Positions 7,113 to 20,462 of a DNA stretch of 20,462 bases are shown piece by piece. The stretch spans positions 1 to 20,462 of the IMG/VR virus record IMGVR_UViG_3300044612_003084. One strand, written 5' to 3'. Numbering within the stretch: position 1 is the stretch's first letter; the number at the start of each line of letters is the position of its first letter. The stretch is from a virus. The translations under genes and the position numbers were made by a program. A model generated the notes under the pieces. That model was not told the origin of the DNA. It worked only from the letters and a program-made list of their open reading frames with translations, and did no database searches.

Positions 7113-9677
7113 ATGTACCGTAACGTTTATTATAGCTCTCGAGACGGGTTGATCCATCTCTTTACTTGGAATGATAAAGGAGAGCGAGTTATCAAGAAGA
7201 TGGCATTTCAGCCGTATTTTTACGTTGAGACGAATTCTGATAACGTAGACGCTGTATCTATCTTTAATACTAAACTAAAGAAAAAGGTTTTTCGCAATAG
7301 TTTTGATCGTAATAAAGCTGCGCAAGATGGAGCTATCAAGCGGCTTTACCATAATATTCAAGTAGAGCAGCAATTTTTAATAGATCAATTTAGTGAACAA
7401 TACGATAAACCCGAATTTACTGCTAACCCTATTAAGGTGTGTTTTCTGGATATCGAAGTATTCAGCCCTGATGAATTTCCGGAAGCTAAAGATGCAAAGC
7501 ACCCTATCAATCTAATTACCATCTATGATAATTTATCTAAAACGTTTTACACATGGGGAACTAAGCCGTATACCTCTAAGCGTCAAAATGTAGTATATAC
7601 AGAATGCTCGAGCGAAGCCGATCTTCTAGAAAAGTTTTTAGAGTTTTGGGAGAATGGGTATTACCCGGACATTCTATCAGGGTGGAATACGGACTTTTTC
7701 GATTTTCCGTATTTAATTAACCGTATTACTAACTTACTCGGGGAAGATGCCGCAAAGCGGTTATCCCCGCTTAAGAGTCTGTGGTGCCGGAAAGGTATTT
7801 TTGTAAAGGGTCAAGAACTAGACCGCTGGTATATTCATGGCCTTGCAGCTATGGACTATCTTGAAGTCTACAAAGGTTTCGCTCGCGGGTTGCTTGAGTC
7901 ATATGCTCTCAACTTTGTTGCGCAGCACGAGCTAGGAGAAGGTAAGTTGGCTATTAACGCAACTAATCTAGCTACTCTTTCAGAGTCTGATTGGAATAAT
8001 TTTGTAGATTATAACATTCAAGACGTTGACCTACTTGTGCGTATGGAGAACAAGCTTCAATTCTTTAAGATTATACGTATGTTAGCGTATAAGGGATTAA
8101 CTAATTTCGAAAGCGCGCTTGGTAAAGTCTCTATTGTAACTGGCTGCGTCTCCCTAGAAGCCCGTAAACATGGTATGGTTATACCTACGTTTGTAGAAGG
8201 GCCCACAAGAGAAGCTATTGAAGGAGGTTATGTAAGAGATCCTGAACGAGGTCTTAAGACTGCTGTAGTTAGCTACGATGCTAACTCACTATATCCTAAT
8301 ACTATCATTACTCTTAATATCTCCCCCGAAACTAAGGTAGGTAAAATTGTTAGTAGAGATAATGAAAATACCAACATACTTTTAACGAGTGGTAAAGAGT
8401 ATAAATTACCTAATGCTAAGTTTGAACAATTTGTAGCTTTGGAAAAACTGGCTATTTCTAAGGCTAATGTGTTATACACTCAAAAGAAGAAAGGGGTTGT
8501 GCCTTCTCTTATTGACGGGCTATATGCAGAACGAGTTGCTAACAAAAATCAGTACGTAGAGTATAAGAAAAAACTCAGTAAGTTAATTCCAGATACTGAT
8601 GATTATAGAGCGTGTAAGACTTTTATGGAAAGAGCGGATACTATTCAATACGTTATCAAAATTTTGCTTAATTCTATTTATGGTGTTTTTGCTAATAAAT
8701 TTTCTCCTATTTGCGATAGTGATCATGCTGGGAGTATTACTCTCACGGGGCAATCTGTGGTTAAACAAGCAAGTGTTATCCTGGATGAATATGCTAAAAC
8801 AAGACATAGTATTGGGACTTCTCTTACTATTTACGGGGATACTGACAGTACTCACATTACTATACAGCCTATACTCGATAAGTTAAAATTAAAAATATTT
8901 CAGAATAATAAAGTTACGCCTGAAGGGTTAGATCTTATTGATAAAGATATGGGGACATATCTTAATGATGAGATTAAAAAGTGGTCTGCTTCAGAGTTCA
9001 AATCAGTCGATCCTCGTTATTTCTTTAAACGAGAATCAATTTGTGATGTAGGGGTGTACCTAGAAAAGAAGCGCTATATTATTCACGTACTCAATGATGA
9101 AGGGGCAGACGTAAATAAGTTTAAATACGTAGGTGTCGAGATTGCTCGTTCTACCACACCTAAAAAAGCTAAAGAACTTATTAAGAAAGTAATTGAAACG
9201 TCCCTAGTAATGCAGGACCAGATTAATGCTAATAACCTTTACAAGCAAACCTACGAAAGCTTTAAGAAATTACAAATTGATGATATAGCTATTAGAGGGG
9301 GGTTAAGTGATTTAGAAAAGTATGAGAGTAAATGTGAGTACCCTTTTAAAATTGCTAAAGGCACTCCTAATCACGTAAAAGGTGCAATTTACTTTAATCA
9401 CCTACTTAGAAAGATGGGTTTAGATACAAAATACGAAAAAATTACTTCAGGGGGTAAGGTTAAAAAGATTTACGTTGCTCCTAATCGTTACCAAATCGAT
9501 ACGCTTTGCTATACCGCAACCTACCCAGTAGAATTTACTGAGTTTCAGGTAGATTATATTGAAATGTTTGATACACTTATTAAACCGCCTATCTTAGCAG
9601 TTTATGAGGCTATTGGTTGGCGACTGCCCGATGTTGTTAATGAATCTGAAACCGATCTTTTTTCTTTATTCTCATGA
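7113..9677 (+). CDS. 43: gp43-like family B replicative DNA polymerase
   Basis: The protein has 854 residues, slightly shorter than T4 gp43 (898). The 3'-5' exonuclease motifs are intact: Asp113 and Glu115 in FLDIEVF, Asp194/Asp197 in GWNTDFFDFPY, and Tyr300/Asp304 in YNIQDVD. The polymerase motifs follow: A, YDANSLYP (Asp389); B, KILLNSIYG (516-524); and C, YGDTDST with Asp576 and Asp578. The last residues, DLFSLFS, resemble the C-terminal sliding-clamp-binding tail of T4 gp43, and a gp45 clamp is encoded further on. The enzyme copies the phage genome with proofreading. The gene begins right after a perfect hairpin and its stop overlaps the start of the DpdA-like gene (ATGA), tying synthesis of the polymerase to a probable DNA-modification enzyme. 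Confidence 0.97.
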   Translation: MYRNVYYSSRDGLIHLFTWNDKGERVIKKMAFQPYFYVETNSDNVDAVSIFNTKLKKKVFRNSFDRNKAAQDGAIKRLYHNIQVEQQFLIDQFSEQYDKPEFTANPIKVCFLDIEVFSPDEFPEAKDAKHPINLITIYDNLSKTFYTWGTKPYTSKRQNVVYTECSSEADLLEKFLEFWENGYYPDILSGWNTDFFDFPYLINRITNLLGEDAAKRLSPLKSLWCRKGIFVKGQELDRWYIHGLAAMDYLEVYKGFARGLLESYALNFVAQHELGEGKLAINATNLATLSESDWNNFVDYNIQDVDLLVRMENKLQFFKIIRMLAYKGLTNFESALGKVSIVTGCVSLEARKHGMVIPTFVEGPTREAIEGGYVRDPERGLKTAVVSYDANSLYPNTIITLNISPETKVGKIVSRDNENTNILLTSGKEYKLPNAKFEQFVALEKLAISKANVLYTQKKKGVVPSLIDGLYAERVANKNQYVEYKKKLSKLIPDTDDYRACKTFMERADTIQYVIKILLNSIYGVFANKFSPICDSDHAGSITLTGQSVVKQASVILDEYAKTRHSIGTSLTIYGDTDSTHITIQPILDKLKLKIFQNNKVTPEGLDLIDKDMGTYLNDEIKKWSASEFKSVDPRYFFKRESICDVGVYLEKKRYIIHVLNDEGADVNKFKYVGVEIARSTTPKKAKELIKKVIETSLVMQDQINANNLYKQTYESFKKLQIDDIAIRGGLSDLEKYESKCEYPFKIAKGTPNHVKGAIYFNHLLRKMGLDTKYEKITSGGKVKKIYVAPNRYQIDTLCYTATYPVEFTEFQVDYIEMFDTLIKPPILAVYEAIGWRLPDVVNESETDLFSLFS

Positions 9678-10483
9678 TTAAAATCTCACACGAATCCCCT
9701 CTTAGTATGCTTGAGATCTCTCGGACATACAACGATTATGACTATGCTCTGGTACATCTTTTCGAGACTAACCCTGAGTATTTTTCTTTTTTTAAAGAAA
9801 GTTTAAAGTTAAACCGAACTGTTCTTCTAGATAATTCTATTTTTGAACTCGGTGTTGCTTTCGAAACAAAAAAATATATTAATTGGATTAATAATTTGGA
9901 GCCTACAGAGTATATTATACCCGACGTACTTGAAAATTGCGATAAAACCATTCAAGAAGCAAAATACTGGATGGGTGGTGCAATTTTTTCTTGTTATAGT
10001 GATTCTGTACCGATCGGAGTTATACAAGGTAAGACCTATGCAGAATTTGTTAAATGCTACACTGCTTTAGATTATTTAGGGGTAGAGAAACTAGCTATTT
10101 CCTTTGATTATAGTTACTATTTAACGGTTTTTCCGCATCCTAATAAATGGGTAAGTTATGCCATGGGAAGAGTGATGACTCTAAAAAGACTTTTGGACGA
10201 TGGTGTCATTAATACCAAGAAGCCACACCACCTACTTGGCTGCGCACATCCTCGCGAATATAGTTTTTATAACGATCCCTCTTTTAATTGGATCAAGACT
10301 TTAGATACTTCATCTCCTATTGTACACGGTATTAAGAAAGTAGGTTATGGAGATCTTTTTGCAAACTGGACAAAAGAAAAAACTAAACTCGTCGACCTAC
10401 TAGATTGTGTTCCCGATGAAGAGCAAGAACAATGGATAGCAGAAAATATAAGAGACTTTAGAAAGTTTGTCCATAATGGATAA
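9674..10483 (+). CDS. TGT-fold base-exchange enzyme, probable DpdA-like DNA 7-deazaguanine transglycosylase
   Basis: The 269-residue protein follows the tRNA-guanine transglycosylase motif order. LLDNSIFELG (Asp53) matches the TDSGGFQ block, IIPDVLE (Asp84) the substrate-recognition Asp, GVIQGKTYAEF (Gln118) the GIVQGG block, HHLLGCAHPREY the LMGVGxPED block, and TLDTSSP (Asp211) the catalytic nucleophile region. TGTs swap guanine for a 7-deazaguanine. Bacterial tRNA TGTs are about 370 residues and carry a CxCxxC...H zinc site; I see none here, and the protein is much shorter. Phage DpdA proteins are TGT-family members that act on DNA. Its position, overlapping the polymerase stop codon and three genes before QueF, supports a DNA role. 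A tRNA or nucleotide substrate cannot be excluded. The assignment is by motif order, not by alignment. Confidence 0.72.
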   Translation: MIKISHESPLSMLEISRTYNDYDYALVHLFETNPEYFSFFKESLKLNRTVLLDNSIFELGVAFETKKYINWINNLEPTEYIIPDVLENCDKTIQEAKYWMGGAIFSCYSDSVPIGVIQGKTYAEFVKCYTALDYLGVEKLAISFDYSYYLTVFPHPNKWVSYAMGRVMTLKRLLDDGVINTKKPHHLLGCAHPREYSFYNDPSFNWIKTLDTSSPIVHGIKKVGYGDLFANWTKEKTKLVDLLDCVPDEEQEQWIAENIRDFRKFVHNG

Positions 10484-10709
10484 GACGATTGAAACTTTAA
10501 CTGAAATTGTACGAATTAATTATCCACATTTATTAGACGGAGATACAAAAATAATCGACTATTGCTTTTGGAACGCAACAAGCAATAAAGAATTACCCGT
10601 CAAAAAACTAGAAAATGTTAAATCCTATAAACTTACCCATGACAATTTTGATTTAGTGCTTGTAATTTTTTTCAGTGATAATACAATAGGTTTTAGATTA
10701 AAAATATGA
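10476..10709 (+). CDS. Small protein of unknown function in the modification cluster
   Basis: This is a 77-residue protein I do not recognise. It begins with an acidic helical stretch (DKTIETLTEIVRINYPHLL) and ends with alternating hydrophobic residues (LVLVIFFSDNTIGFRLKI) that look like beta strands; no signal peptide or clear membrane segment is evident. ATG 10476 is used because it overlaps the DpdA-like gene by eight bases; a TTG three codons earlier is in frame. Its last codons overlap the formyltransferase start (ATGA). Reality as a gene rests on the tight fit between two recognisable genes. A role as an accessory factor of the base-modification genes is only a guess from position. Confidence 0.6.
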   Translation: MDKTIETLTEIVRINYPHLLDGDTKIIDYCFWNATSNKELPVKKLENVKSYKLTHDNFDLVLVIFFSDNTIGFRLKI

Positions 10710-11299
10710 AAAAAGACTTTTACTGGAAAGCGCTTTTTTCTCAAAGCGGGTCTGAGATACTAGAGGTTTCAACTCGAGTTGGGCGCTTCCCGAATGCAAT
10801 TATTACTAACAAGCCTTTAGAAGATATGGATCGTATTAATCCTAGACTTCTAGAGTTAGCTTTTGATCGGTTTATTTTTATTTCTCAAAAGCCATCGATA
10901 GAGGAATACAAAGAATCTATTAGACGGGCTGATATGGTAACATTACACGGTTTTTTACGTATTTTACCTTCTCAAATTTGTGGCCGTTATAGGATTTTTA
11001 ATGGTCACCCAGGCCTTATTACTAAGTTTCCTGCGCTTAAAGGTAAAGATCCTCAGAAAAAAGTTTGGGATAACTATGCAAATACACCATACAAGCTTCA
11101 TGGACATGTTATACATGAAGTTATACCTGAAGTAGATGCTGGTAAGGTTGTTTCTGAAAAACAGTTTTATAGCGAAAACATCTATACCGATTTTAATAAT
11201 ATCGATTCTTATATTGCTAAGCTGCACAGTCTGGCAATTGAAAATTGGGTTGAGTTTATTAAAAAACGTATTATACTAAATAATTCTTATGCGAAATAA
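10706..11299 (+). CDS. PurN-like formyltransferase
   Basis: The 197-residue protein matches the formyltransferase fold of phosphoribosylglycinamide formyltransferase (PurN, about 212). FSQSGSEI near the N-terminus takes the place of the SGNGSN loop. ADMVTLHGFLRILP is the central strand, followed by Asn99 and His101 in FNGHPGLI, then HGHVIHEV and Asp144 in EVDAGKVV. Asn, His and Asp are the catalytic triad in PurN (N106, H108, D144), and the fold uses 10-formyl-tetrahydrofolate. The PurN phosphate-binding SGNGSN loop is changed here, so the acceptor need not be glycinamide ribonucleotide. It is part of an overlapping chain between the DpdA-like gene and a kinase followed by QueF. It may serve phage purine synthesis, as in some cyanophages, or formylate an amine such as preQ1 in the modified base; the latter is speculative. 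Confidence 0.78.
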   Translation: MKKDFYWKALFSQSGSEILEVSTRVGRFPNAIITNKPLEDMDRINPRLLELAFDRFIFISQKPSIEEYKESIRRADMVTLHGFLRILPSQICGRYRIFNGHPGLITKFPALKGKDPQKKVWDNYANTPYKLHGHVIHEVIPEVDAGKVVSEKQFYSENIYTDFNNIDSYIAKLHSLAIENWVEFIKKRIILNNSYAK

Positions 11300-11858
11300 T
11301 TACAAAGCATGTATTTGTGGTGCGCATTCTCAAGGTAAAACTACATTAGTTAATGCTCTTAAAAAAGAAACTTTTTTAACGAGTGAATGTCATTTTTCCT
11401 TTCGTACCAATCTTACAAGGGGTTTGAAAGACTTAAACATACCTATTAATGAGAACGGCACGTCTTTGACACAATACTTAGTCATGGCAAGGCATTTAGA
11501 ATATGCTACTGCTCCAGGTAATTGGATTTTAGATCGCGGAGCTTTAGATGGCATTGCTTATACGGGGTATTTTTACGAAAAAGAACAAGTAAAAAAGGAA
11601 GTATATGAAGCTGCTGTAGAAATATATAGAGATGTAATTAAGTTGTATGACAAGATTTTTTATATTGTACCTGAGTTAAATCTAGAAGATGATGGGGTAC
11701 GTAGTACAAATAAAGAGTTTTTTGAAAGCGTGGTTAAGCAGTTTGAGTTCTACGTTAAGCATAACTCTATGCCTTCTGACAAATTTAAATTCGTTATGGG
11801 CTCTAAACAAGAGCGAGTAGAAACTGTAATTAATGAAATTAAAAAAGACTTTCAATGA
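11289..11858 (+). CDS. P-loop kinase/ATPase (AAA_28, NadR or nucleotide kinase-like)
   Basis: The protein has 189 residues. GAHSQGKT (11-18) is a clean Walker A motif after a short first strand. WILDRGALDGIAYTGYF (79-95) has the Asp-Arg-x-x-x-Asp pattern found in small nucleoside and nucleotide kinases, and the C-terminus has the strand KIFYIVPE followed by an arginine and helices that could form a lid. It resembles phage proteins often annotated as NadR-like or AAA_28 ATPases. The substrate is not evident; a deoxynucleotide, an NAD precursor or a modification intermediate are all possible. It overlaps the formyltransferase by 11 bases and the QueF gene by four (ATGA), so it is probably made together with them. 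Confidence 0.72.
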   Translation: MRNNYKACICGAHSQGKTTLVNALKKETFLTSECHFSFRTNLTRGLKDLNIPINENGTSLTQYLVMARHLEYATAPGNWILDRGALDGIAYTGYFYEKEQVKKEVYEAAVEIYRDVIKLYDKIFYIVPELNLEDDGVRSTNKEFFESVVKQFEFYVKHNSMPSDKFKFVMGSKQERVETVINEIKKDFQ

Positions 11859-12781
11859 ATACTAATAATATCGATAAAGTACTCGGTCAAAGAGTAGATT
11901 CTCCTACTACCTATACGCCCGATATTCTCGTACGAGAAGAGCGTCAACGTAACCGTACATATCTTAATATCCAGAATCAAAACCTGCCATTCGTGGGTTA
12001 TGATATATGGAATGGTTATGAGTGTAGTGCAATGACTGAAAACGGATTGCCTGTCGCGTGCGTAGCTAAAGTTGTTTATACTGCAACTAATCCTTATATC
12101 GTCGAATCTAAGTCAATGAAGCTATATTGGAACGGTTTTAACATGCAGCCTATGGGTAAAACTGTAAAGGAAGTTCTTAAAAATATTAAGACTACTGCAG
12201 AAAAAGATCTTAGCGCTCTTCTAGAGACTGACGTAAAAGTCCAGTTGTTCTCTCAAGTACTCAACGATAATATTACTGAAGATTACGTATCATCTAGAGC
12301 TCGCTGGGAAATTAAATATACCAACGACTGTTGGGGTACTCTTGAAACTCTGCCCGGCGCGGATAAAATTAAGTTTGAGGTTTTTAACGAAGATTCTAAC
12401 TTACTTGAAGTTTACTCTGAGGAAAAAGAAGGGTTCGATTATTTTAGAAGCTCCTTACTTCGCTCTAATTGCAAGATTACTAAGCAGCCTGACTCAGGAG
12501 ACATTTATATCTATTATAAGGGTAATTACAAGATAACCCCTTACTCTCTTCTTAAGTGGATCGTTTCATTTCGGAATGAATGTCACTTTCACGAAGAAAT
12601 TTGTGAAGCAGCGTATAAGCGTCTCTGGGATGTATTGCACCCTAAGGAACTTCTTGTAACTTGTTTCTATGCCCGGCGTGGTGGTTGGGATATTGTACCG
12701 ACTCGTGCTAATAAAAAGAGTCTGCTTGATAAAGACCTTATTAACCCCAAGTCTCCTTATTTTAAGTTCCCTCGTCAATAA
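11855..12781 (+). CDS. queF: QueF, NADPH-dependent 7-cyano-7-deazaguanine (preQ0) reductase
   Basis: The 308-residue protein matches the bimodular (E. coli-type, 282 residues) QueF. The N-terminal module has YDIWNGYECS (49-58) and the QueF motif ESKSMKLYWNGFN (84-96). The C-terminal module has the nucleophile Cys206 in LLRSNCKITKQPD, Asp213, ISFRNECHFHEE with His246 and Glu247, and FYARRGGWDIVPTRA. QueF reduces the nitrile of preQ0 to the aminomethyl group of preQ1 with two NADPH, through a thioimide on the Cys. In bacteria this supplies queuosine for tRNA. In this phage the gene is joined by overlapping reading frames to a DpdA-like enzyme behind DNA polymerase, so I infer the product is meant for DNA. 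All catalytic residues seem intact, which argues against the related amidinotransferase QueF-L. Confidence 0.93.
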   Translation: MNTNNIDKVLGQRVDSPTTYTPDILVREERQRNRTYLNIQNQNLPFVGYDIWNGYECSAMTENGLPVACVAKVVYTATNPYIVESKSMKLYWNGFNMQPMGKTVKEVLKNIKTTAEKDLSALLETDVKVQLFSQVLNDNITEDYVSSRARWEIKYTNDCWGTLETLPGADKIKFEVFNEDSNLLEVYSEEKEGFDYFRSSLLRSNCKITKQPDSGDIYIYYKGNYKITPYSLLKWIVSFRNECHFHEEICEAAYKRLWDVLHPKELLVTCFYARRGGWDIVPTRANKKSLLDKDLINPKSPYFKFPRQ

Positions 12782-12798
12782 CTTGATATTAACTAAAA

Positions 12799-12816
12799 AC
12801 ACTATAATATAACTAT
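12799..12816 (+). promoter_or_regulatory. Probable promoter, ACACTATAAT before the 12817 gene
   Basis: TATAAT (12803-12808) within ACACTATAAT stands eight bases before the ATG at 12817, in one of the few real intergenic gaps (35 bases). TTGATA (12783-12788) lies 14 bases upstream, short for a sigma70 spacer. It would drive the small gene and uvsX. The same ten bases recur before gp41. Confidence 0.55.
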
Positions 12817-13164
12817 ATGGACAATAAAATCATTGTATTTCTTGATAATATTCAGCGTACTATCGTAGCCACGCTTGTATCTGATAATGGTACTAGTATT
12901 ACCGTTACTAAGCCTGCTATTCTTAATGTGAGCCCTACCCCTGAAAAGAAGCTCCAGGTGCAGCTGTATCCAGTTATCTTTAGAGAGTTTCTGAAGGATA
13001 GAGATGTTTTTCCTACCTGGACTTACAGCAAGACTGCGGTTACTACAACCGACAGCCTAGATCTCGAGCCTAACTTGATTCTTCAGTATAATGAGATGTT
13101 TAAGGTAGTTAAGAACGAGCCTGCTCCTACTATCAAGCTGTTCGACGCAGACGAGAACAACTAA
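12817..13164 (+). CDS. Small beta-rich protein upstream of uvsX, unknown function
   Basis: This 115-residue protein has no motif I can assign. It starts with short strands (KIIVFLDNIQRTIVATLV, then SITVTKPAILNV, then KLQVQLYPVIFREFL) that suggest a small beta barrel of the Sm or OB type, and ends acidic (FDADENN). My recollection is that similar proteins occur next to uvsX in marine T4-like phages, but I cannot verify this here. It has its own likely promoter just upstream and is followed by uvsX after one base, so it is the first gene of a uvsX unit. A role in recombination or RNA binding is possible but not shown. Confidence 0.75.
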   Translation: MDNKIIVFLDNIQRTIVATLVSDNGTSITVTKPAILNVSPTPEKKLQVQLYPVIFREFLKDRDVFPTWTYSKTAVTTTDSLDLEPNLILQYNEMFKVVKNEPAPTIKLFDADENN

Positions 13165-13165
13165 T

Positions 13166-14302
13166 ATGGCTCGTAAAAGCAATAACGAAGAAACCAAGGT
13201 CTCCAGCCTCAAGGACATCTTTGAGGCTGTAGATGCTTTAAATGCTGATGCATCTTTACTTTCAGAAGAAAATTCTCTATCTATTGTTAATGATTGGATA
13301 GACACCGGTTCATATGCTCTCAATGCTATATTTTCTGGCTCACTCTACGGCGGAGTACCTGTCGGTCGTATTACTGGGTTTTCTGGCCCTTCTGGGGCTG
13401 GAAAGACACTTATCATTAACAAAATCATCGCTAATGCTCAAAAGAAGGGCTATTTTGCGGCTATATGGGATACCGAAGCAGCTGTCGATCGTCAATCTGC
13501 TGAAGGTGTTGGTATTGACGCTAAAAGAGTCAAGTATTATCCTGTTGAAACCGTAGAAGATTGTCGCAACCAAATTGCGACTTTTCTAGATAAAATCATT
13601 GCTGCAAAAGATCCTAATCTCAAAGTTATTATTGCTATTGATAGTCTAGGTAATCTTGCCAGCGCTAAAGAGCTACGAGATGTAACTGAAGGTAAGGACG
13701 CAGCAGATATGGGCACAAAGGCAAAAGCGATGAAATCTATGATGCGCGCTCTTACCTTTAAAGCAGCTAAGGCACGCGTGCCTATTCTGTTTACTAATCA
13801 TATCTACGATAATCCTACATCTATGTACCCTGAACTAGTTAAAAAACAGTCTGGTGGTTCAGGTCCAGTCTATCTTGCATCTCTTCTTGTACAGTTAGCC
13901 ACACGTAATGAAAAGATTGATAAGAACGAAGATCAGGAAGCTATCGGAGTTGCACATAATGTTAGTGGTGTAACGCTATCAGCAATGACAGTAAAGAACC
14001 GATTCGTGCCTCCCTTTCTCAAGGCTGAACTTTATAACAATTTCCGTACCGGCCTATCCCGTTATGCAGGATTGGCTGATATGGCGATTGCTATGGGAGT
14101 CGTGACCGGAGATAAAACCTATACTCTAGGTACTGATAAGATCGGTTATAGAAAAAACTGGGAAAACGACACAGAGTTTTGGGACAAAAAAGCGCTACCT
14201 CTCCTTGAAAAAGCTTTCAAGGAGAAAGTTTGCTACGGTAACGCTGCTATTGACAGTACGGACGAAACGTTAGAAGCGGAACCAGAAGAAACAAATACCT
14301 AA
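13166..14302 (+). CDS. uvsX: UvsX-like RecA-family recombinase
   Basis: The 378-residue protein is close in length to T4 UvsX (391). It has the RecA core: Walker A GPSGAGKT (74-81), IWDTEAAVD with the acidic residue after the first beta strand, Walker B VIIAIDSLGNL (about 155-165) and ILFTNHIYDNP. The tail is acidic (STDETLEAEPEETN), like that of RecA proteins. UvsX forms filaments on single-stranded DNA and catalyses strand exchange for recombination-dependent replication and repair, together with gp32, gp41 and the gp46/47 nuclease, three of which are encoded here. It starts one base after the 12817 gene and ends just before a clear terminator. Codon usage looks less AT-rich than in the sugar island, suggesting strong expression. 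Confidence 0.95.
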   Translation: MARKSNNEETKVSSLKDIFEAVDALNADASLLSEENSLSIVNDWIDTGSYALNAIFSGSLYGGVPVGRITGFSGPSGAGKTLIINKIIANAQKKGYFAAIWDTEAAVDRQSAEGVGIDAKRVKYYPVETVEDCRNQIATFLDKIIAAKDPNLKVIIAIDSLGNLASAKELRDVTEGKDAADMGTKAKAMKSMMRALTFKAAKARVPILFTNHIYDNPTSMYPELVKKQSGGSGPVYLASLLVQLATRNEKIDKNEDQEAIGVAHNVSGVTLSAMTVKNRFVPPFLKAELYNNFRTGLSRYAGLADMAIAMGVVTGDKTYTLGTDKIGYRKNWENDTEFWDKKALPLLEKAFKEKVCYGNAAIDSTDETLEAEPEETNT

Positions 14303-14305
14303 AAT

Positions 14306-14333
14306 AAAAGCTAAGGGCAACCTTAGCTTTTTT
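14306..14333 (+). terminator. Rho-independent terminator after uvsX
   Basis: AAAAGCTAAGG (14306-14316) pairs perfectly with CCTTAGCTTTT (14321-14331) around a GNRA-type GCAA tetraloop, followed by further T. It begins four bases after the uvsX stop and lies just before the promoter-like motif of gp41, so it separates the uvsX and gp41 transcription units. It is the only clear terminator I find. Confidence 0.9.
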
Positions 14334-14340
14334 AGTTTAT

Positions 14341-14356
14341 ACACTATAATAATGCT
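14341..14356 (+). promoter_or_regulatory. Probable promoter, ACACTATAAT before gp41
   Basis: ACACTATAAT occupies 14341-14350 with TATAAT at 14345-14350, only six bases before the gp41 ATG. Right after a terminator, a new promoter is expected here. No -35 hexamer is visible at 17 bases. A start 6-7 bases after the box would put the first base of the mRNA at the start codon, making a leaderless message. Confidence 0.55.
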
Positions 14357-15700
14357 ATGAAGAAAGAAACCCTTCGAGTTAATACTGATTTCTTTGAGAA
14401 CATCGTGGCATGTCAGTGTTTAACTAATTCGTACTATGCATCTTTAGTTTTTGACCATCTTAACCCAGAAAATTTTAAAAACGCGGGTAACAAACTAGTA
14501 ATTACTATTATTAAAGATTTTTTCGGTAAACGTAGAACTTTACCTACTCTTACCGAAATTAAGACTTATCTATCAAAGCAGGAAGACCTTAAACTTTTTA
14601 AAGAAACGGTAACTACCTATAAGCAATACGACACTAATGTCAATATTGACGAGCTTATTGCTAATACTGAAATTTTCTTTAAAGAAAGAGCGGTTTATAA
14701 TACAGTACTTAAAATAGTAGATGATGTTACTAATGAACGTTCAGACTATGGTAAATTCTTAAGCTGGTTTGAACGAGCCTGTAATATTACTCTAGTAAAT
14801 GATATTGGGCTAGATTTTTACGGAGATTACGAAAGAGTAATCAGAGAGCTGAGTGTACAAAACGAAGTAATACCAACAGGCTGGAACTTTATAGACAGTA
14901 AAATCGGAGGAGGGCTAATGAAGAACGGACGCGCTCTTTATTTATTTCTTGGTCCTACCAACGTAGGTAAGAGTATATTTTTAGGTAATGTAGCTAGTAA
15001 TATGGCTCAAAGAGGTCTTACTACCGTGCTTATTTCCCTTGAAATGCCTGAAATGATGTATGCAAAAAGAATTAGTAGCCACCTTTCAAAAATACCAATT
15101 AATAATATACAAGAGCAGACTTCTTCACTAGAAACCTTCTTTAAAGAGAACGTAGAGACTCATAAACGTAAGCTTATTATTAAAGAGTTTCCGCCTAAAA
15201 GCGTTACAGTCGGAGGTATTAAAGCATATATAGAGTCTCTTGTAAAAGCAGGTATAAAGCCTGAGGTGTTAGTAATTGATTATTTGGGTCTTATCAAATC
15301 CAATGACGGAGATAATTCATACTCGCAAGGTAAAGCTGCAGCAGAAGAGCTTAGAGCATTGTCATATTATTTTAATATGCCAGTAGTAAGCGCTATACAG
15401 ACTAACAGAGAAGGTATGGAGAATCCAAGCCTAGATACAGTGTCAGAGTCTTTAGGTGTAGCATTTACTGCAGATGTGGTGTGGTCTATTCATCAAGAAG
15501 AAGGAGATCAAGAACTGGGCATAATTAAAGTCGGAGGTATTAAGAACCGTTTAGGACCTAAACATGGGGCCACAGCAATGCGTATTGATTATACTACTCT
15601 TTCGCTTTCTGAAGAAAAAGATTATATAGGATTAACCAAGAACGGGGAAGATTCTAATGAAATATCTAATTTAGAAGCAAAACTGGAAAAACTTTCGTAA
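14357..15700 (+). CDS. 41: gp41-like replicative DNA helicase (DnaB family)
   Basis: The protein has 447 residues (T4 gp41: 475). The N-terminal helical domain leads to a RecA-like C-terminal domain with GWNFIDSKIGGG, Walker A GPTNVGKS (199-206), ISLEM, Walker B VLVIDYLGLIK (304-314) and SAIQTNREG carrying the arginine region of DnaB-type helicases. It forms a hexamer on the lagging strand, unwinds the fork and recruits the primase gp61; no primase gene is seen in this window. It follows uvsX as in T4, although separated by a terminator and its own promoter-like motif. The start ATG has no Shine-Dalgarno sequence. Confidence 0.95.
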   Translation: MKKETLRVNTDFFENIVACQCLTNSYYASLVFDHLNPENFKNAGNKLVITIIKDFFGKRRTLPTLTEIKTYLSKQEDLKLFKETVTTYKQYDTNVNIDELIANTEIFFKERAVYNTVLKIVDDVTNERSDYGKFLSWFERACNITLVNDIGLDFYGDYERVIRELSVQNEVIPTGWNFIDSKIGGGLMKNGRALYLFLGPTNVGKSIFLGNVASNMAQRGLTTVLISLEMPEMMYAKRISSHLSKIPINNIQEQTSSLETFFKENVETHKRKLIIKEFPPKSVTVGGIKAYIESLVKAGIKPEVLVIDYLGLIKSNDGDNSYSQGKAAAEELRALSYYFNMPVVSAIQTNREGMENPSLDTVSESLGVAFTADVVWSIHQEEGDQELGIIKVGGIKNRLGPKHGATAMRIDYTTLSLSEEKDYIGLTKNGEDSNEISNLEAKLEKLS

Positions 15701-15716
15701 CTAGCTAAATAGACAA

Positions 15717-16628
15717 GTGGATCCAAAGAAGATATTTGTTTTTACAGACTCCGACTTAGACGGAGCGGCCAGTCTTTTAACCTTACACTGGGCTCTAAAA
15801 GCCAACCCTGGCGATATAAAATTCCATACAGTTACAGTTTCAAATTTTAGAAAAGAATTTTTACTTTGGGCAGCAGAGAACAGTATAGAGAACTACGATG
15901 CGGTATATTTTTTGGATCTAGATACAAGTACAAGTTTTGACTTAATTGATAGCAAAAAGTCTATTATTATAGATCACCACGAAACACACGATACAAGCAA
16001 ATATAAAAATGCTACAACTAATGTTGTGGTTACGTCCTCTTGTGCGAAGTTACTCTATTTACATTTTAAAGACAAACTAACGTCTTTAAATAACGAGCAA
16101 AAATATTTAATAGCGTTAGCTAATGACTATGACAGTTATGCCTTTAAACTGCCTGAGTCATATAATCTTAACTGTGCCTTTTCAAACTCTCAAAAAACAC
16201 TAGGTAAGAACAAGACCTACAAATTTTTAGAACGTTTTTATAATGGTTTTACCGGGTTTACCTCATTAGAAAACAATATTATAAAAGAATATGTAACCGG
16301 TAGAGATGCAGCTATATCTACTTTACAAATCTATTCAGGCAATGTACCTATAAGCAAGCAAAACTTACAGATTACCGGGACAATGGGTACCAAATATATA
16401 AACGATATTTGCGACCATCTTCTTAAAACTTATAATTCAGATATCGTATTTTTTGTTAACACAAATAGTTCTCACGTTTCTTTTAGAAAAAAGAAAACTT
16501 GTAATGTAAATTTAGCTAAACTAGCTGAGTTTTTATGTGGTGGTGGCGGCCACGAATACGCAGCTGGTGGAAAGATCACGGAAAAATTTATGAATTTTTC
16601 TAAACAATTGTCCCTAATTACAGCTTAA
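15717..16628 (+). CDS. DHH/DHHA1 phosphoesterase (NrnA/RecJ-like nuclease)
   Basis: The 303-residue protein has the DHH-DHHA1 layout. VFTDSDLDGAAS (8-19) gives the first metal-binding aspartates, FLDLD (65-69) the next, and IIIDHHETHD (83-92) the DHH motif. The C-terminal DHHA1 domain has SHVSFRKKK and CGGGGHEYAAGGKI, the substrate-binding GGGH loop. Its length suits NrnA-type nanoRNases and phosphatases better than full RecJ exonuclease (about 570). It lies where T4 has rnh and dsbA, just before the 33/59/32-like genes, so a primer- or oligonucleotide-clearing role at the fork is a fair inference. It starts with GTG: an in-frame stop at 15702 excludes a more upstream start. No ribosome-binding site is evident. 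Confidence 0.85.
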   Translation: MDPKKIFVFTDSDLDGAASLLTLHWALKANPGDIKFHTVTVSNFRKEFLLWAAENSIENYDAVYFLDLDTSTSFDLIDSKKSIIIDHHETHDTSKYKNATTNVVVTSSCAKLLYLHFKDKLTSLNNEQKYLIALANDYDSYAFKLPESYNLNCAFSNSQKTLGKNKTYKFLERFYNGFTGFTSLENNIIKEYVTGRDAAISTLQIYSGNVPISKQNLQITGTMGTKYINDICDHLLKTYNSDIVFFVNTNSSHVSFRKKKTCNVNLAKLAEFLCGGGGHEYAAGGKITEKFMNFSKQLSLITA

Positions 16629-16629
16629 C

Positions 16630-16926
16630 ATGTCTGGAGTAATTGGAGCATTAGAACAAGCTGTTGTAGATAATCCTTTAGATAGTCTAACTAAGGATGA
16701 AACAGAATATGAAATTTTAAAATTTTGTTCTTTTTGCTCTATATTGCATAACAAAAAATTAAACAACGTCACCGTGTTCACTCTTATTGTCAAGAACAAT
16801 ATCTACAAAAAGATATTCATGAAACTAATACAAGTTGACAATGAAAAAGAAGCGTTTATTGTGTTTTTAAAGTATAATTCAAATTTATGCCGTAGCAAAG
16901 TTGTACGAGAGGTATTAAAATCATGA
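16630..16926 (+). CDS. Unknown protein at the gene 33 position
   Basis: This is a 98-residue protein without a motif I recognise. It has an acidic N-terminal third (DNPLDSLTKDETEYEI), two adjacent cysteines in FCSFCS, and a basic C-terminus (CRSKVVREVLKS). T4 order in this region is rnh, dsbA, 33, 59, 32, and here a DHH nuclease, this gene, a gp59-like gene and gp32 follow one another, so it holds the place of gp33, the late-transcription coactivator (112 residues). The clamp-binding C-terminal tail of T4 gp33 (LDFLL) is missing, so I do not call it gp33. It begins one base after the DHH gene stop. Confidence 0.6.
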   Translation: MSGVIGALEQAVVDNPLDSLTKDETEYEILKFCSFCSILHNKKLNNVTVFTLIVKNNIYKKIFMKLIQVDNEKEAFIVFLKYNSNLCRSKVVREVLKS

Positions 16927-16932
16927 AGGCTA

Positions 16933-17574
16933 ATGAACGCACCTTACATTTACAATACCTACTTAAGCGTATCGCGAGGGCTTCAGAACAAGCCATGGCG
17001 TGCTCGTAAAGATTTTGACGGGTTTGATATTACAATCGACGGAGTAGCTTGTAAAAAATTAGAACTTTTTTTCAAGAAATTTCCGCAGATAGACGTAAAA
17101 GAGTTTTTTAATGCTCCTTATCTCATCTATAAAGACGAGCAGCATTTTCCTTTAAAATTTTACACAACCCAGAAAGCAATCGCGGTATATTCAGCAGTAC
17201 AAAAGCAAAAATTAGAAGAATCCCCTGACACTCAAAATCAGATTGATAATATTAAGAAAAGCCTCAAACATATTGGGTTGACATGTTTAGAGCGTAAAAT
17301 AGCCTTCGATAGATACTGCTTCGAGAAAAACGGATACACGTATACCCCGATTATTGATTACAGTAATAAACTAATTAACATTTACGTACTGATTAAGTTG
17401 CCTTCTTTCGATAGTATGATAAACTCTTTTAACCTTCAAGATAAGGAGCTTTACCTAAAAAACATACACAATAGCATTGGTAAGTTTAAACTGCGATTGA
17501 ATATGTCTACTAGAGCAAAGAACCTAATTGACGAAGGTTTCAAAATACTAACCAAAAATACTCAAAATTACTAA
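16933..17574 (+). CDS. Probable gp59-like helicase loader
   Basis: The protein has 213 residues, against 217 for T4 gp59, and sits immediately before gp32 exactly as gene 59 does. Sequence support is weak but present: an N-terminal IYNTYLSVSRGL like the YKLYLMIK helix of gp59, a middle segment KLELFFKKFPQIDVKEFF, and a C-terminal MSTRAKNLIDEGFKIL resembling the last helix of T4 gp59 (IDSQKAKNVFIETV). gp59 binds fork DNA and gp32 and loads the gp41 helicase, both encoded here. It is rich in Lys and aromatic residues, suiting DNA binding. GAAGG three bases before the ATG is one of the rare Shine-Dalgarno-like sequences in the window, though the spacing is short. A remote-homology comparison is needed for certainty. 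Confidence 0.55.
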   Translation: MNAPYIYNTYLSVSRGLQNKPWRARKDFDGFDITIDGVACKKLELFFKKFPQIDVKEFFNAPYLIYKDEQHFPLKFYTTQKAIAVYSAVQKQKLEESPDTQNQIDNIKKSLKHIGLTCLERKIAFDRYCFEKNGYTYTPIIDYSNKLINIYVLIKLPSFDSMINSFNLQDKELYLKNIHNSIGKFKLRLNMSTRAKNLIDEGFKILTKNTQNY

Positions 17575-17576
17575 TT

Positions 17577-18521
17577 ATGAAACCTACATTTAATACCAAT
17601 ATGTTCGAAAGCATTAAGAGCGCGCTCGAAAATGCTAAAAATAAGCAAGGAGACGGCGCTAGTTATAAGAATATTCTGCAAATTGCAGCACCTGCTACTT
17701 ACGTGGTGCGTTTGCTTCCTAACGTTAAGAACCCTGCTGAGACGTTTTTGCATTATTATCATCACGGCTGGAATAGTATCTCCACTGGCAAGTACTTTAG
17801 TGTAACTTCTCCGTCGACTTGGGGAGAGCGGTGCCCTGTAAGCGAGCTTTACTTTAAGATCCTTCGCGAGGGCAGTGATGAAGAGAAGAACCGTGCTAAG
17901 GAACATCTTAAGCGTAAGGAAAACTGGATGGTTAATGTTTATGTTGTAAGCGATCCCAAAAACCCTGATAATAATGGTACTGTTAAGGTTCTTCGTTATG
18001 GCCGCCAACTCAATAAGATTATTGAAGCGGCTATCAATGGAGATGATGCGGCGGAGTACGGCGCTAAGATTTTTGATCTTAGCGAGAATGGATGCAGTCT
18101 ACGTATTAAAGCTGAGCTTGTTTCGGACAAGCCAGGTGCCCCTAAGTACCCTACGTATACCGCGTCTAAGTTTCTTAGCCCTGCTGCTATCGATGGTATT
18201 GATGAAGACAAGATCAATGAGGTCTATAATAACATCTACGATCTACAGACCTTTTTGGATCACAAATCAGCTGATGAGTTGAAAGAGGTTATTAATGTAC
18301 ACTTCTACGGTCAGGAGGCTGCTGCAGCGGCACCAGCGCCTGAGGTTAAGGCTACAGAAGACGTAGAGGAAGATGTCCCTTATGAAGCTCCTAAGCCTGT
18401 TGTTAAGCCTGTAGCAGCTACTCCCAGTCCAGTTAAGGCTGCCCCTAAGACTGAAGTAAAGAGCACTAAGTCGAATGATGAAGCAGTAATGGCTATTCTC
18501 AACGGCTTGGAAGATCTTTAA
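17577..18521 (+). CDS. 32: gp32-like single-stranded DNA-binding protein
   Basis: The protein has 314 residues (T4: 301). The basic N-terminal region (to about 30) mediates cooperativity in T4. The OB-fold core contains TYVVRLLPNV, FLHYYHHGWNS, WGERCPVSELYF and NWMVNVYVVSDPKNPDN followed by VLRYGRQL, all typical of gp32. Of the T4 zinc ligands (one His, three Cys) only Cys86 is plainly kept, next to a Ser where T4 has the next Cys. A long Ala/Pro/Lys linker (about 240-300) leads to the C-terminal AILNGLEDL, the tail that recruits partners. Codons look less AT-rich than in most neighbours, fitting the heavy expression of gp32. It follows the gp59-like gene by two bases and precedes the unknown 18525 gene by three. 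Confidence 0.93.
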   Translation: MKPTFNTNMFESIKSALENAKNKQGDGASYKNILQIAAPATYVVRLLPNVKNPAETFLHYYHHGWNSISTGKYFSVTSPSTWGERCPVSELYFKILREGSDEEKNRAKEHLKRKENWMVNVYVVSDPKNPDNNGTVKVLRYGRQLNKIIEAAINGDDAAEYGAKIFDLSENGCSLRIKAELVSDKPGAPKYPTYTASKFLSPAAIDGIDEDKINEVYNNIYDLQTFLDHKSADELKEVINVHFYGQEAAAAAPAPEVKATEDVEEDVPYEAPKPVVKPVAATPSPVKAAPKTEVKSTKSNDEAVMAILNGLEDL

Positions 18522-18524
18522 GAT

Positions 18525-19052
18525 ATGACTGAACAGCAAAGAAGAGAACAAATTATGAAAATGAGGCAGCAGGCGCAAGGGCCTGCTGCGCCCTCTCTTT
18601 CTGATGCTGATGCTATGAAAATGGCAGGCAGCACCAACGGGCTCACGCAAGAGCAAATGATTGCTATTGCTATGTTTGGCAAAGTGGTGCAAAATGATGT
18701 AAACACAATTAAAAAAGCTGGATTGGGTGATATGAAAGTCAGTGATGTGGATATGTCTAAAGTCATGCCTTCAGGTATTGCTAAAGCTGCCGGTATGGTT
18801 ATTCCTCAAATACCGGCAGCTATGCCTGTTAATCCGCCTGTAGTACCAGTAATGCCGCAAATGGCTTTACCTTTAGTGAGTCAGCCTGTTGCAGCTAATT
18901 CCGACTCTCAATTAGAGTTTAATTTTGACAAAAAAGCTCGTTACGAAGATATTATTGAACATATTGAAAAACTAGAAAAAAAGCTTATTATGGTTAATGA
19001 AAAGCTTGATCTTCTTCTAGAAGATAAAAAAAAATTAGTAACGAACCCATAA
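18525..19052 (+). CDS. Unknown protein between gp32 and gp45 with a clamp-binding-like motif
   Basis: The 175-residue protein is not one I recognise. The N-terminus is polar and helical with many Met and Gln (QQRREQIMKMRQQ), then comes a helix LTQEQMIAIAMFGKVVQNDV, a Pro/Met/Val-rich low-complexity stretch (about 92-122), the motif QLEFNF (129-134), and a C-terminal coiled coil (about 139-170) with heptad Leu/Ile. QLEFNF resembles the QLxLF type of peptides that bind beta or gp45 sliding clamps, and the next gene two bases on encodes the clamp, so a clamp partner is plausible. The coiled coil suggests oligomers. Two strong hairpins fall inside its coding sequence. Confidence 0.75.
   Translation: MTEQQRREQIMKMRQQAQGPAAPSLSDADAMKMAGSTNGLTQEQMIAIAMFGKVVQNDVNTIKKAGLGDMKVSDVDMSKVMPSGIAKAAGMVIPQIPAAMPVNPPVVPVMPQMALPLVSQPVAANSDSQLEFNFDKKARYEDIIEHIEKLEKKLIMVNEKLDLLLEDKKKLVTNP
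18566..18589 (+). repeat. GC-rich hairpin inside the 18525 gene
   Basis: GCAGCAGGC (18566-18574) and GCCTGCTGC (18581-18589) form a perfect 9-base stem with a GCAAGG loop, about 40 bases into the gene after gp32. It is GC-rich in an AT-rich genome. No T-run follows, so it is not a standard terminator; an mRNA-stabilising or attenuating element for the gp32 message is possible. Confidence 0.45.
18785..18821 (+). repeat. Long perfect inverted repeat inside the 18525 gene
   Basis: AGCTGCCGGTAT (18785-18796) and ATACCGGCAGCT (18810-18821) are perfect 12-base inverted repeats around a 13-base loop. It codes for an Ala/Gly/Pro-rich stretch, so protein constraint may explain part of it. No T-run follows. 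Confidence 0.45.
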
Positions 19053-19053
19053 T

Positions 19054-19788
19054 ATGGAACTTAAACTGGTTAAGAAAGATTTTGCAGATAACTTCTTAAA
19101 TGTTATTAGCAAAACAGTCGACATTGCTTCTATTAAAGCAAATTCAAACGGTATTTATACGGTTTGTAATAAACCCGATACTAGTATTATCCTTCTTGGC
19201 AAATACAATACTCCCTTAGATCTTACTGAAGAGGTTACTCTTAATATAGGAGATATTAAAAAACTATTAAGAGTGGTAGATTGTATTGAAGACGAAAATG
19301 TTGTATTTAAGATTAATAGTAATAATCTTACCTACAAATCCCCCAGTGTCCAGTTTAAGTACCACTTTTTAGATGATTCTATTGTACCTAAAGTTTCTCT
19401 TAAAAAAGAGAAAATAGAAAATCTAGAGCTTGATACTTTCTTTGATCTTGACTATAAAAAGTTTCAAGAGATTCTTAAGGCTAGTTCATTTACTACTGAT
19501 ACTAATAAAATTTATATTTTCGGTCAACCTGATGGTTGCTATTGCGAACTAGGAGACAAAGAAAAAAGCAATACCGATAGCATTGTACTTAAGATTTGTG
19601 ATACAATAGAAGGACAGCCTTTGTCTCACGTAATACCGTTTAATCTTGATATTTTTAGAGTGATATCTGGTATACGCTTCGAGAGAGCGCGTATCGGTAT
19701 TAATCTTAAGTTTAAAGTGCTTTCTTTTTTTATTAAACCAACTAACGAGACAGAATTTAAATTTATTATTTCGGGTCTAGTTAAGTAA
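19054..19788 (+). CDS. 45: gp45-like sliding clamp
   Basis: The protein has 244 residues against 228 in T4 gp45, and shows the alternating beta-strand pattern of the clamp fold in two similar halves. Recognisable family features include LNIGDIKKLLRVVDCI (about 64-80), VQFKYHFLDDSIVP, the FQEILKASSF helix (about 136-146) and the C-terminal EFKFIISGLVK. As a trimer it rings DNA, holds gp43 on the template and, in T4, also activates late transcription with gp33 and gp55. In T4 genes 44 and 62 (clamp loader) follow at once; here a small unknown gene and FolE follow, so the loader genes have been moved. The stop overlaps the next ATG by one base. Confidence 0.88.
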   Translation: MELKLVKKDFADNFLNVISKTVDIASIKANSNGIYTVCNKPDTSIILLGKYNTPLDLTEEVTLNIGDIKKLLRVVDCIEDENVVFKINSNNLTYKSPSVQFKYHFLDDSIVPKVSLKKEKIENLELDTFFDLDYKKFQEILKASSFTTDTNKIYIFGQPDGCYCELGDKEKSNTDSIVLKICDTIEGQPLSHVIPFNLDIFRVISGIRFERARIGINLKFKVLSFFIKPTNETEFKFIISGLVK

Positions 19789-20126
19789 TGGCTAATAAAA
19801 TTACAACACAGAGTTATTTTATAAAACGACTTAAAGATAGCGGTTATGTCGTTTATAAAATATTTGACGAGTATAATGAAGCTGATCCCCGCTCGTGGAC
19901 TGTTATGATTGATCCAGGTAATGCATCTATTTTTTGTACTTGTTACGTGAACGATCAATCTATGTTTGGAGAGACTTATTTTGAAATCTACGATGGTGGT
20001 CAATATATACCTGAAAAGTTTAAGTTGAAGACAGATTCAATTGAGGTTATAATAAGCTATTTAGTTAAACATGGAATCAATAACAAATCAGACAACTACA
20101 ACAGCAAGTCGAATTCAAACATATAA
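19788..20126 (+). CDS. Small protein of unknown function after gp45
   Basis: This 112-residue protein has no family I can name. The first 75 or so residues look compact, with SYFIKRLKDSGYVVYKIF (helix and strand), WTVMIDPGNASIFCTCYVN and TYFEIYDGGQYIP; the last 20 are Asn/Ser/Lys-rich and probably disordered, and they overlap a possible upstream start of FolE. It overlaps the gp45 stop by one base, so coupled translation is likely. The position after the clamp is where T4 has gene 44, but the size and sequence exclude the clamp loader. Confidence 0.7.
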   Translation: MANKITTQSYFIKRLKDSGYVVYKIFDEYNEADPRSWTVMIDPGNASIFCTCYVNDQSMFGETYFEIYDGGQYIPEKFKLKTDSIEVIISYLVKHGINNKSDNYNSKSNSNI

Positions 20127-20136
20127 TTTTACCAAT

Positions 20137-20462
20137 ATGAGCAAAAACGGTCTACAACACCCCCTTCTGCCTACTGCTAATAGTAGTATGCTTGTTAGTG
20201 ATAGCGAGAAGAAGGAGATTATTGAAAAAGCGGCTATAGCTTATGAAGGCTTTCTTGATGCTCTACGCATAGACTGGCGCAACGATGTAAATAGTGCGGA
20301 CACACCTCGTCGTGTCGCTAAGTCTTATGTTTGCGATCTTATTAAGGGCTGCTATGAAGGACCCCCTAAGATCACTACATTTCCTTCTGATGGATATGAC
20401 GGTATTGTAAGTCAAATGAATATCCCGGTTACGTCTATGTGCTCTCATCACCATCTTGCTTT
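20137..20462 (+). CDS. folE: FolE, GTP cyclohydrolase I, 5' part
   Basis: The gene runs off the end of the window, with about 108 residues visible. The family pattern is clear: TPRRVAKSYVCDLIKGCYE (the TPxRVAK helix), FPSDGYDGIVSQMNIPVTSMCSHHHLAF, where Cys and His of the CSHHH block are zinc and catalytic residues in FolE. The enzyme opens GTP to dihydroneopterin triphosphate, the first step to folate and, via QueD, QueE and QueC, to preQ0. Together with QueF and the DpdA-like gene, it points to deazaguanine synthesis. ATG 20137 is chosen because it lies ten bases after the previous stop; an in-frame ATG at 20071 would add 22 polar residues and overlap the gene before it by 56 bases. Confidence 0.88.
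   Translation, partial: MSKNGLQHPLLPTANSSMLVSDSEKKEIIEKAAIAYEGFLDALRIDWRNDVNSADTPRRVAKSYVCDLIKGCYEGPPKITTFPSDGYDGIVSQMNIPVTSMCSHHHLA

Follow-up and report, generated by a model that had tools for sequence, protein, structure and literature searches.

A predicted 7-deazaguanine DNA-modification pathway in the replication region of a T4-like environmental phage, and the kinase genes found beside DpdA3-type transglycosylases

The virus record IMGVR_UViG_3300044612_003084 is a stretch of 20,462 bases of environmental DNA from a tailed phage, and this whole stretch is called the window below. The right half holds a T4-like replication region, with genes for an SbcC-like subunit, a family B DNA polymerase, a UvsX-like recombinase, a DnaB-like helicase and a single-strand binding protein, and the phage is T4-like. 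Within this region a run of plus-strand genes overlap one another in the order DNA polymerase (7113-9677, 854 aa; PHROG_262 DNA polymerase at 5.1e-186), a predicted guanine transglycosylase with the fold of the tRNA-guanine transglycosylases (TGT; 9674-10483, 269 aa), a small open reading frame (ORF; 10467-10709, 80 aa), a PurN-like formyltransferase (10706-11299, 197 aa), a P-loop kinase (11289-11858, 189 aa) and a bimodular QueF, or preQ0 reductase (11855-12781, 308 aa), the successive overlaps being 4, 17, 4, 11 and 4 bp. A gene for FolE, GTP cyclohydrolase I, lies on the same strand and is cut by the end of the window (20071-20462, with a likely start at 20137). The small ORF has an uncertain TTG start and no assigned function. 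A preliminary description of this DNA had joined the TGT-like gene, queF and folE into one 7-deazaguanine pathway and had pointed out that the TGT-like gene runs over the polymerase stop codon, which its ATG does by 4 bp; the formyltransferase and the kinase that lie between the TGT and QueF had been overlooked.

The TGT-like protein matched nothing in Pfam at E values up to 1 or in NCBIfam at E values up to 10, and in PHROGs it fell only into families without an assigned function (PHROG_19058 at 1e-45). Its AlphaFold2 model, built from 56 aligned proteins of the window and of viral contigs, has eight barrel strands, a predicted local distance difference test score (pLDDT) of 95.0 and a predicted template modelling score (pTM) of 0.92. 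Foldseek matched this model to the TGT barrel (best E value 1.2e-8), with TGTs in rows 1-48 of the best 50 and 7ui4, 'DNA preQ0 insertase DpdA', in row 49. VIA-align gave a Z score of 17.9 and a root-mean-square deviation of 3.1 Å over 231 residues, and all of its best 50 rows were TGT entries. When the PDB was searched by sequence alone, with the protein and with its profile, nothing significant was returned (best E values of 1.3 and 0.045, both to unrelated proteins, with DpdA 7ui4 at 0.27), so the fold assignment rests on the structure model.

Residues D53, D84, G119, H186, L188, G189 and D211 are invariant in 56/56 aligned relatives, R166 is kept in 55/56, and position 118 is Q in 54/56 and H in the other two. 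In the model, D53 stands at the end of strand 50-53, D84 and Q118 come after strands 79-81 and 112-117, respectively, and strands 185-188 and 207-212 carry the H-x-L-G motif (H186-x-L-G189) and D211. This order is that of D102, D156, Q203, the LMGVG motif and D280, which we take to be the active-site order of TGT, an equivalence judged from strand order and motif rather than from a residue-level structure alignment. On the model, the protein appears to possess the catalytic Asp pair and the base-recognition Asp and Gln of the TGT/DpdA superfamily, and activity is predicted. The preliminary description had proposed a TGT-fold protein of 269 residues with Asp53, Gln118 and Asp211, to be given up if a profile or structure search placed 9674-10483 outside the superfamily; because of the fold matches, the residue order and the invariance, the protein is placed inside it and the proposal stands.

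The TGT is 48% identical to a protein annotated as DpdA in Flavobacterium phage vB_FspM_immuto_2-6A (immuto) and 39.5-41.0% identical to proteins of the Campylobacter CP220 group (CP220, 39.5%, E value 2e-37; CPt10, 40.5%, E value 3e-38), all of which we take to be DpdA3. A tblastn search of 50,697 phage records found 33 that match at E values up to 1, from phages of Campylobacter (15), Cellulophaga (5), Bacillus (5), Flavobacterium (4), Brevundimonas (2), Weizmannia (1) and Chryseobacterium (1). Profile comparisons by hhalign with the DpdA1/DpdA2 systems gave probabilities of 16.6% and 1.0%, the sequences being too distant for a reliable profile match, and the scan counts show no gene matched by both the DpdA3 and the DpdA1/2 profiles at 1e-5. 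Judged by sequence, the window TGT groups with the immuto and CP220-group proteins. The earlier DpdA-type reading was right about the fold and the kind of enzyme, a predicted deazaguanine transglycosylase, but the protein appears to lie outside the DpdA1 and DpdA2 groups.

Several loci show further features of the DpdA3 family. Two DpdA3 genes stand in tandem at locus L155 (6001-6798 and 6791-7660), and a second adjacent copy is also present at L150; at neither locus is there a kinase between DpdA3 and QueF. The second L155 copy has N in place of D53 and I in place of D211 and has also lost Q118 and H186, and the pair is reminiscent of the catalytic and non-catalytic pair of the eukaryotic TGT. 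A 144-aa protein without a Pfam match lies immediately 5' of DpdA3 in five clusters (L075:5570-6004 and four relatives). DpdA3 relatives of 35-47% identity were also seen on five contigs of bacterial metagenome-assembled genomes (L293-L297 of the genome contigs).

The remaining genes of the predicted pathway were sought in the window and on a 119,783-base viral contig (119.8 kb) that carries the window with 20,452/20,462 positions identical. QueF has the Pfam domains QueF_N (93.1 bits) and QueF (60.6 bits), both above cut-off, contains C206, D213, H246 and E247, and aligns over residues 9-289 to QueF structures (3bp1, E value 2.9e-33), in keeping with the complete bimodular enzyme described before. 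FolE scores 29.7 bits on PF01227 within the window, barely above the cut-off of 27; its frame opens at ATG 20071, and the ATG at 20137, from which the gene had been described, lies further inside the frame and is plausible as a start. On the 119.8-kb contig the gene is whole (L023:351-1079) and encodes a protein of 242 aa, or of 220 aa if the inner ATG is used, with a match to PHROG_2197 at 2.4e-60. QueC, QueD and QueE are all missing from the window, as had been noted, and a search of the larger genome, recommended in the preliminary description, found the three in a separate operon of the 119.8-kb contig: QueC with 206.9 bits, QueD with 63.6 bits and QueE by PHROG_2076 at 1.2e-40. For QueE the NCBIfam QueE models were the best matches, yet below cut-off, and the generic radical-SAM Pfam model failed to detect a protein that the PHROG and NCBIfam models did detect. 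Since these genes lie on a contig that is nearly identical to the window, the preQ0 genes are encoded by the same phage.

This gene set supports the single pathway first proposed for three of its members. FolE, QueD, QueE and QueC would lead from GTP to preQ0, QueF would convert preQ0 to preQ1, the DpdA3-type TGT would swap guanine for preQ1, and the PurN-type formyltransferase would cap the aminomethyl group to give 7-(formylamino)methyl-7-deazaguanine (fdPreQ1). We infer these reactions, their product and the presence of a modified base in the phage DNA from the genes themselves, their order, folds and active-site residues. QueF, however complete its domains and residues, reaches 214.2 bits on TIGR03138, below the NCBIfam equivalog cut-off of 293.45, which counts against the pathway. 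We nevertheless consider it probable that the phage carries a complete pathway for replacing guanine in DNA by a 7-deazaguanine of the fdPreQ1 class, wherever the exchange takes place.

The kinase of the window matches PF13521 (43.2 bits), and its AlphaFold2 model (pLDDT 92.8) is nearest to the NadR nicotinamide-riboside kinase (Z score 17.2), human deoxyguanosine kinase (16.3) and human thymidylate kinase (15.9). Because these structural matches are tied or nearly so, the protein may phosphorylate either nucleosides or nucleotides. The other deazaguanine operon of this phage also encodes a kinase of this Pfam family (AAA_28), at L022:9430-10140 (minus strand), between QueC and QueE and near a thymidylate synthase.

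The occurrence of kinase genes was compared between DpdA3 loci and DpdA1/DpdA2 loci. The DpdA3 counts cover 180 genes at 178 loci, with 135 distinct proteins and with some loci representing the same contig twice; they comprise the best 80 of 545 and the best 80 of 239 matches, scans yielding 7 and 4, eight isolate regions and the window. Clustering at 70% identity gave 49 clusters, 44 of them with three genes on both sides. The controls were 95 DpdA1/2 genes in 49 clusters, of which 43 were usable, mostly from small phages and with only three larger-phage controls. A kinase gene was among the three genes on either side of the TGT in 38/44 DpdA3 clusters and in 0/43 DpdA1/DpdA2 clusters, the clusters not being independent of one another. 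Since the family models had been seeded from DpdA3 neighbours, a family-blind Walker A test was added, and this gave 37/44 against 0/43. Coarser clustering gave 16/20 against 0/13 at 50% identity and 4/6 against 0/6 at 40%. The kinases belong to at least three groups that the models keep apart: PHROG_2107-like (the window, immuto, CP220 and CC_R7), PHROG_761-like (BSTP8 and Youna2) and PHROG_19196-like (phiST and MA9V-3).

Seven of the eight isolate regions have a kinase within three genes, and the eighth, StAshley, has an annotated deoxynucleoside monophosphate (dNMP) kinase approximately 6 kb downstream. The DpdA3 genes with no kinase within three genes were those of L111, L114, L130 and L123 and both genes of L155; at L111 an annotated dNMP kinase is situated some 6 kb downstream, and at L114 a kinase-like gene lies seven genes upstream. 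Among larger phages, pf16, Vibrio 6E35.1a and Vibrio 2.275.O possess QueF without DpdA3, their TGT-like gene being of another kind or not recognised, and none has a small P-loop gene as close as three annotated genes to its TGT-like gene or QueF, although in pf16 a kinase-like gene is found five genes beyond the TGT-like one. The genes for DpdA2, QueF and QueC of KVP40 are numbered consecutively (PMC8056088). A published link between a kinase and DpdA3 was not found in the literature searched, which did not include the papers most relevant to it, and such a link may be in print.

Other candidate neighbours were set aside. A link to a phosphoribosyltransferase of guanine salvage was dropped (9/33 DpdA3 against 18/38 DpdA1/2, with a promiscuous model), nearness to a DNA polymerase did not serve as a discriminator (10/33 against 22/38), and a link to MazG was weak (9/33 against 2/38) and is absent from the long contig of the window. 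HD hydrolases scored above cut-off in 2/15 DpdA3 records.

Campylobacter phages CP220 and CPt10 resemble the window in having a TGT of the same family beside a homologous kinase, and differ from it in that no QueF or PurN was seen within 8 kb in CP220 and that the base reported there is dADG rather than a preQ1 derivative. According to PMC8306585, dADG replaces 100% of dG in both phages. Hutinet et al. 2019 count the Campylobacter phages among those without DpdA. Their table gives 70,628 dPreQ0 per million nucleotides for CAjan and 96,530 for Rosebush, phages with other DpdA types, from which we calculate approximately 32% and 28% of G, and for Dp-1 approximately 1.7% of G is given as dPreQ1 (Hutinet et al. 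2019). Replacement in the phages with other DpdA types is therefore partial, whereas in CP220 and CPt10 it is total. The DpdA1/DpdA2 systems as a whole (9g, CAjan, Rosebush-like, nt-1, Dp-1) share with the window a preQ0 pathway and a TGT-fold DNA transglycosylase, and differ from DpdA3 in having neither the adjacent kinase nor purN.

The linkage to kinases, together with the complete replacement in CP220 and CPt10, favours an exchange on free deoxynucleotides, a route that the preliminary description had not considered and that the adjacent kinase opens. DpdA3 would act on dGMP or deoxyguanosine, the kinase would raise the product towards the triphosphate and the polymerase would incorporate it. 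It also speaks for a nucleotide step that several unlike groups of kinases occupy the position beside DpdA3, and that the window kinase has the fold of deoxynucleoside and nucleotide kinases. The logic would be analogous to that of the dZ pathway, with other enzymes and another base, if DpdA3 acts on dGMP. In that pathway PurZ takes dGMP to dZMP, and kinases and polymerase follow (PMC12783734); no PurZ turned up here, where no search was aimed at it. We regard the general sequence of exchange on dGMP or deoxyguanosine, phosphorylation and polymerisation, which has exceptions, as the likeliest route, though only at about an even chance. The fuller proposal, that DpdA3 is a mononucleotide or nucleoside transglycosylase and not a DNA-guanine transglycosylase, with the PurN-like enzyme formylating the nucleotide before kinase and polymerase act, is put forward tentatively, at only just short of an even chance.

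Several observations weigh against a nucleotide step. All TGTs known to us act on polynucleotides, and the abstract of the 2023 work of Cui et al. reportedly concludes that insertion is post-replicative, the opposite of what the kinase linkage suggests here. A clade of DpdA3 loci (L155, L181, L142, L175, L143 and L145) has DpdA3, purN and queF with no kinase between them. Kinases of this family are also encoded by Streptomyces phages (35/53 records, at 26-28% identity among the matches listed), and in the one Streptomyces phage neighbourhood examined no annotated deazaguanine gene lies beside the kinase. There was also no match to MazG (PF03819), PRA-PH (PF01503) or HD (PF01966) in the 119.8-kb contig, which is possibly incomplete, so that no dGTP-clearing enzyme of a known family was seen on it.

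These same observations on the clade, the Streptomyces kinases and the conclusion attributed to Cui et al. speak for a rival reading, in which DpdA3 swaps guanine in DNA after replication, as DpdA1 and DpdA2 presumably do, the kinase belongs to nearby ordinary nucleotide metabolism and full replacement follows from a lower sequence specificity of DpdA3. The fold, which matches both the polynucleotide-acting TGTs and the DNA preQ0 insertase, agrees with such an exchange, and later papers place the action of DpdA at the nucleic-acid level, on DNA. It accounts less well for the contrast in kinase adjacency between DpdA3 and DpdA1/DpdA2, which is also seen in the three larger phages without a small P-loop gene close by (in pf16 the kinase-like gene is more distant), and for the fact that DpdA3 proteins are shorter and more acidic than DpdA1/2 (median isoelectric point (pI) 5.50 against 6.50, 48 clusters each). 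Post-replicative exchange is a serious contender, which we rate somewhat below an even chance, the low specificity it calls for included.

The identity of the product depends on the PurN-like protein, a candidate preQ1 formyltransferase resembling DpdN. It matches PF00551 (Formyl_trans_N) with 31.7 bits against a cut-off of 26.1, aligns to solved glycinamide ribonucleotide (GAR) transformylases (best E value 1.2e-5) and keeps an Asn-x-His and an Asp of the catalytic type (N99, H101, D144). Its identity to the immuto counterpart is 40.7%. Among the 33 DpdA3 clusters flanked by 4 kb or more of sequence at both ends, purN-type genes occur only together with queF, in 16/17 clusters with queF and in 0/16 without it, and they were found in 0/38 neighbourhoods of DpdA1/2. 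Because a PurN-type gene lies between the TGT and QueF and because purN occurs only with queF, formyl-preQ1 is a likelier product than preQ1, and the simplest reading is that the PurN-like enzyme would formylate the amine made by QueF to give fdPreQ1. The preliminary description, in proposing preQ1 or a derivative, was right in kind, a 7-deazaguanine, but plain preQ1 now seems the less likely product, the modified base itself being deduced from the genes. PurN itself acts on the amine of a small ribonucleotide, and a formylation step at the nucleotide level would be in keeping with this.

Immuto has the same TGT family and the same order of TGT, small ORF, PurN, kinase and QueF, with the TGT annotated as DpdA, the kinase as thymidylate kinase and QueF as such, and with QueC, QueD, QueE and FolE near by. 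As the two phages share the order from TGT to QueF, the likeliest product is formylated preQ1 (fdPreQ1). The surroundings differ: immuto has a family A polymerase downstream of the cluster and a MazG/PRA-PH-type pyrophosphohydrolase with QueD, QueE and FolE just upstream, whereas the window has its family B polymerase directly upstream, FolE 7 kb away and QueC, QueD and QueE in another operon.

Should the PurN-like gene serve ordinary purine biosynthesis or act on another substrate, the product would be plain dPreQ1. The best named NCBIfam match of the protein is indeed phosphoribosylglycinamide formyltransferase PurN, with 37.4 bits, below the cut-off of 150.1, and one DpdA3 cluster has queF and a kinase and lacks purN. 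The confinement of purN to clusters with queF and its absence around DpdA1/2 are at odds with this, as is the 2023 work of Cui et al., which is said to describe DpdN as a dPreQ1 formyltransferase and fdPreQ1 as a DNA base, and to report that DpdA3 allows complete replacement. We judge plain dPreQ1 unlikely. It is very improbable that preQ1 is made for queuosine in host or phage tRNA and not for DNA, since, although queuosine precursors are ordinarily made by FolE, QueD, QueE, QueC and QueF and TGT is a tRNA enzyme, the genes are placed in the replisome operon, the CxCxxC zinc motif, presumably part of bacterial TGT, is found in 0/48 DpdA3 clusters, and guanine substitution is complete in the DNA of the relatives CP220 and CPt10.

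Two features apart from the cluster may be mentioned. The replication operon of the window includes, at 15717-16628, a gene for a DHH/DHHA1 phosphoesterase, which lies between the helicase gene and a small ORF. An ORF at L022:5856-6704 contains some 28 consecutive glycines, which may be an artefact of assembly or of low complexity.

The gene set of the window is close to that of immuto, and a few isolated phages are already known to carry sets of this kind. Its membership alone, if right, would place T4-like environmental phages among those with a predicted formyl-preQ1 genome, and DNA of this sort should withstand many restriction enzymes and prove difficult to sequence or amplify. Hutinet et al. 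2019 mention a proposal of modified dGTP for the Campylobacter phages. If the kinase linkage is as read here, total guanine replacement in some phages would proceed via the nucleotide pool and not on DNA. We know of no other TGT-fold enzyme that acts on a free nucleotide, and DpdA3 would be the first. DpdA3 phages would then represent a second nucleotide-pool system of purine replacement beside the diaminopurine (dZ) phages, which would explain the 100% replacement.

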